Below are positions 13,785 to 18,918 of a stretch of 38,638 nt of DNA, one piece after another. The stretch comes from Acidovorax sp. (GTDB taxonomy: Bacteria > Pseudomonadota > Gammaproteobacteria > Burkholderiales > Burkholderiaceae_C), in assembly GCF_027492855.1 (NCBI RefSeq), contig NZ_JAPUDY010000101.1:1-38638 (forward strand). Direction: 5' to 3'. The notes below the pieces were generated by a model. The model saw only the letters and a list, made by a program, of their open reading frames with translations, had not been told where the DNA came from and ran no database searches. Both the position numbers and the translations under genes were made by a program. Positions within the stretch are counted from its first letter, which is position 1, and the number at the start of each line of letters is the position of its first letter.

Positions 13785-15116
13785 ATGCCCCAATCCCTCA
13801 ACGAACAACTGAGCCGCGAACAACAAATTGCCGCCCTGGAAAAAGACTGGGCCCAGAACCCCCGCTGGAAGGGTGTGAAGCGCGGCTACACCGCCGCTGA
13901 TGTGGTGCGCCTGCGCGGCTCGCTGCCCATCGAGCACACGCTGGCCAAGCGCGGCGCCGAAAAGCTGTGGGAAAAGGTCAACGGCGGTGCCAAGAAGGGC
14001 TACGTGAACGCCTTCGGCGCAATCTCCGCCGGCCAGGCCATGCAACAAGCCAAGGCTGGCCTCGAAGCCGTGTACCTGTCGGGCTGGCAAGTGGCCGCCG
14101 ACGGCAACACATCGGAAACCATGTACCCCGACCAGTCGCTGTACGCCTACGACTCGGTGCCCACCATGGTGCGCCGCATCAACAACACGTTCAAGCGTGC
14201 TGACGAAATCCAGTGGGGCCGTGGCATCAACCCCGGCGACAAGGAATTCATCGACTACTTCCTGCCCATCGTGGCCGATGCGGAAGCCGGTTTCGGCGGC
14301 GTGCTGAACGCTTTCGAGCTGATGAAGAACATGATTGCCGCTGGCGCTGCTGGCGTGCACTTCGAAGACCAACTGGCTGCCGTGAAGAAGTGCGGCCACA
14401 TGGGCGGCAAGGTGCTGGTGCCTACGCAAGAAGCTTGCGAAAAGCTGATCTCCGCCCGCTTCGCCGCTGACGTGATGGGCGTGCCCACCATCATCCTGGC
14501 CCGTACCGATGCGGAAGCCGCCAACCTGATCACGTCTGACCACGATGCCAACGACAAGCCTTTCCTGACCGGCGAGCGCACGCAAGAAGGTTTCTACCGC
14601 GTCAAGAACGGCCTGGAGCAAGCCATCAGCCGTGGTGTGGCCTACGCCCCCTACGCCGACCTGGTGTGGTGCGAAACCGGCGTGCCAGACATTGGCTTCG
14701 CCCGTGAATTCGCCCAGGCCGTGCTGGCCGCCAACCCCGGCAAGCTGCTGTCGTACAACTGCTCGCCATCGTTCAACTGGAAGAAGAACCTCAACGACTC
14801 GCAGATTGCCTCCTTCCAGGAAGAACTGTCGGCTCTGGGCTACAAGTACCAGTTCATCACGCTGGCTGGCATCCACATCAACTGGTTCAACACCTTCCAG
14901 TTCGCCCACGCTTATGCCCGCGGCGAAGGCATGAAGCACTACGTGAACATGGTGCAAGAGCCCGAGTTCGCAGCCCGCGACAAGGGTTACACCTTCGTGT
15001 CGCACCAACAAGAAGTGGGCGCAGGCTACTTCGACGACGTGACCACCGTGATCCAGGGCGGCTCGTCCAGTGTGAAGGCCCTGACGGGTTCGACCGAAGA
15101 AGAGCAGTTCCACTGA
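13785..15116 (+). CDS. aceA: Isocitrate lyase
   Basis: A 443-residue isocitrate lyase of the glyoxylate shunt, cleaving isocitrate to glyoxylate and succinate. The active-site signature KKCGHMGGK carries the catalytic Cys203. Other conserved parts are [54 protein letters not shown] and the C-terminal SCSPSFNW-like [11 protein letters not shown]. Length agrees with bacterial ICL (about 430 residues). CTCCTGGAGTGATCTC before the ATG contains GGAG. The gene is monocistronic: AT-rich operator-like sequence in front and an intrinsic terminator behind. Growth on acetate or fatty acids would need it. Confidence 0.97.
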
Positions 15117-15167
15117 TCTGAGGGGCTTTTGTGCCACCCCGGTGTGGCGCAAAATGCACCGAATAGA

Positions 15168-15197
15168 AGCCCGAAGCACCCGCTTCGGGCTTTTTTG
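15168..15197 (+). terminator. Intrinsic terminator after aceA
   Basis: The stem AGCCCGAAG/CTTCGGGCT is followed by six T, 50 bp after the stop codon. Confidence 0.9.
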
Positions 15198-15259
15198 TTG
15201 GCATCAAGGTTAAAATACGAACAAATTCACTGCACAAGAGCGAGAAAGGCAATCTGGTT

Positions 15260-15301
15260 ATGACACCGCGAACTACATCGGAGATGTTGACCGGCCGTTA
15301 A
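15260..15301 (+). CDS. thrS leader peptide (Thr-rich)
   Basis: The 13-codon frame reads MTPRTTSEMLTGR then TAA. Four of 13 residues are Thr, two of them adjacent (ACT ACA), which is far above chance for this length. GAGAAAGG lies about 10 nt before the ATG. It sits between a promoter-like hexamer and an intrinsic terminator, 132 bp before thrS, and its Thr codons overlap one arm of the leader hairpin. The role would be to sense charged tRNA-Thr; the peptide itself probably has no function. Confidence 0.75.
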   Translation: MTPRTTSEMLTGR

Positions 15302-15345
15302 GGCTGGCTGTTCGCGCCTGCACGAGATTGCACCCTCCTCCAGAA

Positions 15346-15371
15346 AGCGCGGACCTGTTCCGCGCTTTTTT
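15346..15371 (+). terminator. Attenuator terminator before thrS
   Basis: The perfect 8-bp stem AGCGCGGA/TCCGCGCT with a 5-nt loop is followed by T-rich sequence. It ends 61 bp before the thrS start, where a terminator only makes sense as a conditional one. Confidence 0.88.
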
Positions 15372-15432
15372 GTTTTTGGGCCTGGCGCGAGCCCGCATCC
15401 ATTGCACTGATTGAAAAGAAAGAGTGACTCCC

Positions 15433-17352
<1,920 letters not shown>

Positions 17353-17439: not shown

Positions 17440-18039
17440 ATCGCTACTGAATTTCGTGATCGTCGCCACCGTGAAGAGCGCAAGCACCGCCTGAACCGTG
17501 AAATCATGGCCCCGGAAGTTCGTCTTTCCGGACCTGACAATGAGCCCCTGGGCGTTGTCAGCCTGATGGAAGCCTTGCGCATGGCAGGTGAGCTGGATGT
17601 GGATCTGGTGGAAATCGCTGCCACGGCGAACCCTCCGGTGTGCCGCCTCATGGACTACGGCAAGTTCAAGTACCAAGAGCAAAAGCGTGCGGCGGAAGCC
17701 AAAGCCAAGCAGACGGTCATTGAGATCAAGGAAGTCAAGTTCCGTCCCGGAACGGATGATGGCGACTACAACATCAAGATGCGCAATATCCGCCGCTTTT
17801 TGGCGGATGGCGACAAGTGCAAGATCACGCTGCGGTTTCGTGGCCGTGAAATCACGCACCAGGAGCTGGGGCTTGCGCTGCTCAATCGCATTCGCGACGA
17901 GCTGGGCGACACCATCATCATCGAGCAGTTTCCCAAGCTGGAAGGCCGCCAGATGATCATGATGATTGCGCCGGGCAAGAAGAAGCCCGCTGCCAAGCCA
18001 GCGGCCGAAGCAGCACCCGCATCGGGCGCTGCGGCCTGA
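17440..18039 (+). CDS. infC: Translation initiation factor IF-3, non-AUG start (ATC)
   Basis: A 199-residue IF-3, which binds the 30S subunit and checks start-codon pairing. The N-domain shows [20 protein letters not shown], then [20 protein letters not shown] and [10 protein letters not shown]; the C-domain shows [20 protein letters not shown] and [14 protein letters not shown]. The first in-frame ATG (17506) would start inside the N-domain. AAGGA (17427-17431) lies 8 nt before an ATC at 17440, and an in-frame TAA at 17425 blocks anything longer, so ATC is the likely start. IF-3 genes are known for rare AUU-type starts, allowing IF-3 to repress itself. A Lys/Ala tail ([20 protein letters not shown]) extends the C terminus. 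It lies 87 bp after thrS. Confidence 0.93.
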
Positions 18040-18817: not shown

Positions 18818-18829
18818 GTTCACGATGGG

Positions 18830-18908
18830 CAGCTATCTTCTTGATAGCTGCTTGCGCAATAACAGCAAGGGCTAGGGCTTGAAAAGGCACTAGCCCTTGT
18901 TTATTTTC
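18830..18908 (+). terminator. Paired hairpins in the rplT-pheS gap, terminator-like
   Basis: The first hairpin, CAGCTATC/GATAGCTG, belongs to the repeat family. The second has perfect 10-bp arms CAAGGGCTAG (18866-18875) and CTAGCCCTTG (18890-18899) with a T-rich tail, ending 11 bp before the pheS start. It may lower transcription into pheST. No Phe-rich leader peptide is present. Confidence 0.55.
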
Positions 18909-18918
18909 AAGAGTCGAT

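Follow-up and report, generated by a model that had tools for sequence, protein, structure and literature searches.

A probable threonine-sensing attenuator in front of thrS in Acidovorax and other Burkholderiales

Introduction

The stretch of DNA that precedes thrS in a genome of Acidovorax sp. raises the question of whether the synthesis of threonine--tRNA ligase can be matched to the supply of charged tRNA by a ribosome stalling on a short threonine-rich frame. The window analysed here is the whole stretch of 38,638 nucleotides (contig NZ_JAPUDY010000101.1), and its nearest named relative, judged by thrS, is Acidovorax facilis (98% identical). The order Burkholderiales in the GTDB sense holds nearly all former Betaproteobacteria.

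An earlier note on this DNA had read a complete threonine-dependent attenuator in front of the gene. The region is very probably a classical ribosome-mediated transcription attenuator placed before thrS, which would sense the charging of Thr-tRNA. This reading is backed by the anatomy of the leader, the frame-specific enrichment of threonine codons, conservation in many families and predicted switching above that of shuffled sequences; to these we infer a promoter, translation of the frame, termination and a response to threonine.

Structure of the leader

All the parts of the attenuator named in the earlier note, namely the frame, the 1:2 and 2:3 pairings and the terminator, are present between 15211 and 15371. 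The features, all on the forward strand, are as follows.

15211-15216, + strand: TAAAAT, a -10-like box and candidate promoter of the leader transcript, from reading of the sequence
15242-15249, + strand: GAGAAAGG, a purine-rich stretch conserved in alignment A1 and candidate Shine-Dalgarno site for the leader frame
15260-15301, + strand: leader peptide frame MTPRTTSEMLTGR with stop codon TAA; similar or homologous frames occur in relatives
15267-15273, + strand: segment 1, CGCGAAC, spanning codons 3-5 and paired in the MFE fold with segment 2 (GTTCGCG, 15310-15316)
15269-15274, + strand: CGA-ACT (Arg4-Thr5) codon pair, common to most leaders (80 of 100)
15275-15287, + strand: small hairpin ACATC/GATGT within the 1:2 domain, from folding
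15291-15307, + strand: hairpin CCGGCC/GGCTGG around the stop codon, 93.7% of cells paired in A1
15310-15317, + strand: segment 2, GTTCGCGC, with segment 1 or segment 3 as alternative partners
15344-15371, + strand: intrinsic terminator, with the stem at 15344-15368, segment 4 at 15359-15365 and an unbroken T run to 15371
15347-15354, + strand: segment 3, GCGCGGAC, the 5' arm of the terminator, from the terminator search and pair counts
15433-17352, + strand: thrS, threonine--tRNA ligase (score of 721 bits with TIGR00418, whose cut-off is 383.65)

The codons of the leader frame (ATG ACA CCG CGA ACT ACA TCG GAG ATG TTG ACC GGC CGT TAA) give the peptide M T P R T T S E M L T G R, which is the 13-codon peptide with four threonines, two of them adjacent, that had been described. 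The described pairing of a segment inside the Thr codons with a second segment is that of segments 1 and 2, and the second segment can indeed pair alternatively with the 5' arm of the terminator through 8 bp, one of them G-U. The three pairings 1:2, 2:3 and 3:4 are all possible in the window and are mutually exclusive. An independent terminator search recovered the same terminator with bounds 15342-15370, and the terminator before thrS is conserved in alignments A1 and A2. From the end of the T run to the ATG of thrS there are 61 nt, as previously stated. The 159-nt leader folds with z = -3.8, for part of which the terminator accounts; the leader occurs once in its own genome by DNA search, and no Rfam family reached its gathering score over it.

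Many of the comparisons were made with 76 leaders that follow a pattern called here MTPRT, written after the sequences had been viewed, which requires CCG as third codon and AC[TGC] as fifth and leaves codon 2 and codons 6 onward free. The alignments A1 and A2 contain 21 and 25 of these 76; A1 consists of Comamonadaceae-type leaders, and pair counts are from A1 only. TANAAT is found 5' of the leader ATG in 39 of the 76, in 28 of these at a distance of 48-50 nt, the spacing in the window being 49 nt; no sigma-70 site was detected at the leader by consensus scan. RGAAAGG lies within 25 nt 5' of the ATG in 62 of the 76. The ACATC/GATGT hairpin is not well conserved, just 60% of its cells being paired in A1.

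Proposed mechanism

RNA polymerase would start about 35-40 nt 5' of the leader frame, as judged from the -10-like box, and a ribosome would begin to translate the leader peptide. If Thr-tRNA were short, the ribosome would stall at Thr codon 2, 5 or 6 and cover segment 1, and segment 2, left free, would catch the emerging 5' arm of the terminator and allow transcription into thrS. If Thr-tRNA were plentiful, the ribosome would reach the stop codon, open the stop hairpin and cover part of segment 2, and the terminator would form. It would form also if the frame were untranslated, segments 1 and 2 then pairing with each other. The gene behind the attenuator, thrS, belongs to the metabolism of the amino acid sensed.

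Gene neighbourhood

The NCBIfam assignments give the order aceA, thrS, infC, rpmI, rplT, pheS, pheT and ihfA, in which aceA (13785-15116) has its own terminator just 5' of the -10-like box of the leader. Judging by gene order, control by the attenuator might extend to infC, rpmI, rplT and pheST. The gap between rplT and pheS contains at 18866-18907 a terminator-like element, a 10-bp hairpin CAAGGGCTAG/CTAGCCCTTG followed by TTTATTTT, which may separate the transcription of pheST from that of thrS.

A piece within the interval 18822-18915 may be a repeated intergenic element: its own genome has six further matches to it, 26-50 bases long and 78-92% identical. Some Rhodoferax-type leaders (L017, L035, L052) have pieces like it (GCTAC..AAATT..ATAGT) between segment 2 and the terminator. 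The infC gene (17440-18039) has an apparent non-AUG start, ATC, after AAGGAAGATAGCC, and the translation from there matches infC; the start codon of E. coli infC is AUU.

In 27 of 31 hand-picked loci tRNA-Val(GAC) stands beside thrS, with or without a Thr leader between them, the four loci without it being three of the family of the window and L109. The linkage was observed in L098-L100, L105, L106, L113, L114, L122, L147, L160, L166 and L168, among others, and extends to other gammaproteobacterial orders (L174, L176, L180).

Distribution among relatives

The thrS gene was found in 195 of 200 genomes across the order. The near set comprised 80 thrS loci of named genomes, 78 of them with upstream sequence after L067 and L075 had been dropped; a leader frame precedes thrS in 51 of these 78 and is missing in 27. 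For the order as a whole, 76 upstream regions were picked by hand among the matches listed, one to five per family from 44 families, and a short Thr frame with a terminator was found before thrS in at least 36 of the 76 loci and in 22 of the 44 families. The short frames of the order-wide loci carry Arg-Thr, or in a few cases Leu-, Pro- or Lys-Thr, examples of the peptides being MFKRTTTTRISR, MSFRTTTTGTLNQG, MFFPLARTTTRNFRPMSR and MCSSQTFRTTTPSL; the leader peptide of Leptothrix (L065) is MTPRTTTTTTSTSTEV. A search of 399 genomes for the core 17-mer ACACCGCGAACTACNAC gave 13 matches, of which 12 fall at thrS. The leaders are related to each other, so that such counts are not independent trials.

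A quick thrS tree of 79 rows needs at least 14 changes between presence and absence of the leader, support being weak for 25 of its 76 inner branches; L021, with a leader, and leader-less L030, for example, are joined by short branches. The tree counts cannot separate gain from loss, and it is the leader sequence common to the carriers which suggests that some relatives lack the leader through loss. The leader frame and segment 2 are gone, with TAAAAT and a GC-rich terminator retained, in L005, L006, L007, L020, L025, L036 and L040, and L030 is likewise leader-less but has TAAAAAT; in such loci the retained box and terminator are a few tens of bases apart, directly 5' of the essential thrS.

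Two single loci may be mentioned. In L016 (Polaromonas) the leader retains its core sequence, with ATA in the place of the start codon and a degraded frame, and looks recently inactivated. The thrS of L021 groups in the tree with that of Malikia spinosa, and for this reason the name of the bin, a record titled Chitinophaga pinensis (Bacteroidota), looks wrong.

Threonine codons in the short frame

At the local Thr frequency, the presence of at least four threonines among the 12 non-start codons of the window frame has P = 0.002, and among 5000 dinucleotide shuffles of the leader 191 gave a frame of 8-30 codons with at least four threonines and a TT pair. The window by itself is therefore weak evidence, barely beyond chance, and the case rests on the relatives.

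When the MTPRT-type leaders are reduced to the 74 distinct ones, 71 have ACA as their second codon and 68 have ACT as their fifth, the threonine at codon 5 being imposed by the pattern; ACA and ACT together make up only 9 of the 119 Thr codons in five genes of the window. From codon 7 onward, threonine is encoded by 95 of 537 codons in frame (17.7%) against 8 of 463 (1.7%) and 13 of 463 (2.8%) in the other two frames. The MTPRT-type peptides have between 2 and 9 threonines, four on average, and 58 of the 76 contain TT. A further 24 leaders outside the pattern had their frames picked by eye for Arg-Thr or Lys-Thr, and for this reason threonine was counted in them only past the first such pair; the share was 44 of 196 codons in frame (22%) against 7 of 172 (4%) and 9 of 172 (5%). 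Four of the 24 (L115, L140, L158, L159) have a single threonine in the whole peptide. The conserved Thr codons for which the earlier note would search the relatives are thus found as an enrichment across families that is specific to the frame.

In several leaders outside the family of the window (L122, L129, L140, L143, L117, L158, L105, L108) a Thr-Cys pair, ACT TGC or ACT TGT, stands right after an Arg or Leu codon.

The CGA-ACT codon pair

The least expected part of the thrS attenuator is the CGA-ACT pair. In 89 of 100 leaders the codon directly 5' of the control Thr codon is CGA, the Thr codon being the rare ACT in 80 and ACG in 9 more; 24 of these 100 frames were the ones picked by eye, whose CGA-ACT frequency is biased by the choice. 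With no frame chosen by eye, the hexamer CGAACT was found in 27 of the 76 order-wide loci and 20 of the 44 families, its reverse complement in 4 loci; by number of loci it ranks 8th among hexamers, and the seven above it resemble pieces of the terminator. Of 28 CGAACT sites, 27 have a start codon in frame no more than 13 codons away and a stop codon no more than 25 away, a share for which the chance rate was not computed. In five genes of the window CGA is one of 155 Arg codons.

The idea that CGAACT is kept only to pair with GTTCG is insufficient, as 50 of the 80 CGA-ACT leaders have neither GTTCG nor GTTCA within 60 nt past the stop codon, though weaker or partial complements may occur there. 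The constancy of the pair is not explained by that pairing. CGA is read by an inosine anticodon, and slowly; its presence in the P site could slow decoding in the A site and turn a single Thr codon into a sharp test of Thr-tRNA charging. One might then speculate that the true sensor is not a run of codons but one primed codon, the control Thr behind CGA, with the other Thr codons accessory, a suggestion which we hold to be rather doubtful. The pair would in that case be kept for decoding rather than for contacts in the RNA, as the 50 leaders lacking GTTCG and GTTCA suggest. A related study concerns CGA-CGA pairs in yeast (PMC6301793).

Predicted switching and covariation

As a measure of switching, the probability that the 5' arm of the terminator pairs upstream before the 3' arm exists was predicted for 75 leaders, L032 being left out. 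Stalling at Thr5 gave a mean of 0.68 and a leader free of ribosomes 0.40; a ribosome that had reached the stop codon gave an intermediate mean, 0.58 or 0.52 according to which of two footprints was used. For the window, stalling gave 0.81, the ribosome at the stop codon 0.70 or 0.44, and the absence of a ribosome 0.30. Counting differences above 0.1, the stalled state was higher than the untranslated one in 48 of the 75 leaders and lower in 9, and it was higher than the state with the ribosome at the stop codon in 38 and lower in 12, or 42 and 11 with the larger footprint. A ribosome at the stop codon lowers the predicted antitermination only modestly. Averaged over the 75 leaders, the stalled state exceeded the untranslated one by 0.284, against at most 0.077 in 20 sets with the sequence linking frame and terminator shuffled; over the 24 further leaders the mean excess was 0.304, against at most 0.104 in 30 shuffle sets. 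Together with the in-frame Thr enrichment across families, this predicted switching in two sets of leaders argues for the ribosome stalling that the earlier note had postulated.

Taken leader by leader, duplex energies did not surpass those of dinucleotide shuffles: the 1:2 pairing had a mean z of -0.32 and p <= 0.05 in 5 of 76 leaders, the 2:3 pairing a mean z of -0.56 and p <= 0.05 in 11 of 76. The finished terminator is the most stable fold at equilibrium, even with segment 1 removed; the choice of antitermination must consequently be made during transcription of segment 3.

Compensatory changes, proposed earlier as a check on the alternative stems, were found in one element of the structure. 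In the stop-codon hairpin five of six pairs have changed on both sides (A1). Over the whole structure 22 cells changed on both sides, 8 of them in this hairpin, a number reached by none of 500 shuffles, and nine pairs have such changes, as many being found in 7 of 500 shuffles; related sequences can exceed shuffles of this kind without any structure. The number of further pair types, 17, is not unusual, 88 of 500 shuffles reaching it, and is one of five covariation measures. In the 1:2, 2:3 and 3:4 cores no covariation was seen in the A1 pair counts: six of the seven pairs of the 1:2 core are invariant over the 21 sequences, the 2:3 pairing has 96.4% of cells paired and zero changes on both sides, and the terminator stem is mostly near-invariant. 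Columns that hardly vary speak neither for nor against the switch; their near-invariance is as expected of segments with two partners, yet it is not positive evidence.

Other explanations of the leader

It could be supposed that thrS lies behind a constitutive, leaky terminator inherited from the tRNA-Val which stands before the gene in many relatives, and that what is conserved is a small RNA or another RNA element with incidental Thr codons. The adjacency of tRNA-Val(GAC) and thrS in 27 of the 31 loci tested, the box and terminator retained without a leader in L005, L006, L007, L020 and L025 (in L030 as TAAAAAT), and the fact that much of the conservation is at the nucleotide level, synonymous positions included, agree with such a view. 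It leaves aside, however, an enrichment of threonine which is frame-specific while codons and positions vary, a stall-dependent switching above shuffles and the in-frame start and stop of 27 of 28 CGAACT sites (chance rate not computed), and we consider it improbable.

A second alternative is an arrest peptide, in which stalling would be set by the sequence (Arg-Thr after Pro or Phe) or by a drug or metabolite, and not by the charging of Thr-tRNA. The part common to the peptides is Arg-Thr, and L115, L140, L158 and L159 carry that one threonine only; extra Thr codons are nevertheless enriched while other residues vary, just four residues are joined when the ribosome is at codon 5, and the controlled gene is the Thr-specific one. 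This makes an arrest peptide less probable still.

Comparison with known control systems

The thrS operator of E. coli acts at translation. It and the leader of the window share a feedback on thrS that is matched to tRNA-Thr, but differ in means, the operator being protein-mediated: E. coli ThrRS binds stem loops in its own mRNA that resemble tRNA-Thr (PMC7373986). A search for operators of that type, recognised here as a hairpin with an anticodon-like NGU loop, gave none in the 75 nt directly preceding thrS in the window. As a comparison set, thrS was found in 33 genomes of the same class outside the order of the window; 29 of these yielded loci, 8 of which have such a hairpin just before the gene, against 2.6% in mononucleotide shuffles; all eight loops are CGU, GGU or UGU, the tRNA-Thr anticodons. 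Within the order the hairpin occurs in 7 of 100 loci with a leader and in 1 of 67 without, against about 3% in shuffles. The contrast drawn earlier with the control of E. coli thrS agrees with these counts, and the distribution fits an E. coli-type operator in other orders and attenuation in that of the window. A role of ThrRS itself, which would bind the leader RNA much as it does its mRNA in E. coli but act on termination, is on the same counts the least probable of the alternatives, and it would leave the in-frame Thr codons unexplained.

The attenuator of E. coli pheST (the pheM leader) is ribosome-mediated, has a leader rich in Phe and is placed before pheS. The leader of the window resembles it in serving an aminoacyl-tRNA synthetase operon and in being rich in the cognate amino acid; it differs in that this amino acid is threonine and that it stands before thrS, whereas the E. 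coli element lies before pheS inside the thrS-infC-rplT-pheST cluster. The leader of the enterobacterial threonine operon is a Thr-rich attenuator that controls thrABC and senses Thr and Ile. This Thr_leader (RF00506) governs biosynthesis, unlike the leader of the window, which precedes a synthetase gene; its best match in the window had 24.8 bits against a gathering score of 55 and lay at 15125-15198, outside the leader, a position which identifies it as the aceA terminator. The T-box found before thrS in Firmicutes binds uncharged tRNA directly, with no translated frame, and has in common with the reading proposed here a transcriptional sensing of tRNA-Thr charging through a terminator switch. 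No T-box match was obtained from Rfam at the gathering score in the window, nor was one among the 19 weak matches over 15116-15440.

Significance

The mechanism of ribosome-mediated attenuation is already known, and the thrS attenuator is new as a member within the literature searched, which covered titles and the beginnings of abstracts with few subscription journals and showed, among the matches listed, no attenuator of a betaproteobacterial thrS. If the attenuator is true, ribosome stalling in Betaproteobacteria would be a third way for thrS to match the synthetase to charged tRNA, the other two being the protein operator of E. coli and the T-box of Firmicutes. A comparative survey of 2013 (PMC3766115), which used Rfam models and included genomes of Burkholderia and Ralstonia, treats attenuators for His, Leu, Thr and Trp and suggests a gammaproteobacterial origin for them; an attenuator across betaproteobacterial families would widen the map. 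How switches are lost before an essential gene could be studied in the close relatives that repeatedly lack the leader, and the constant CGA-ACT pair may help to understand what makes a good control codon.
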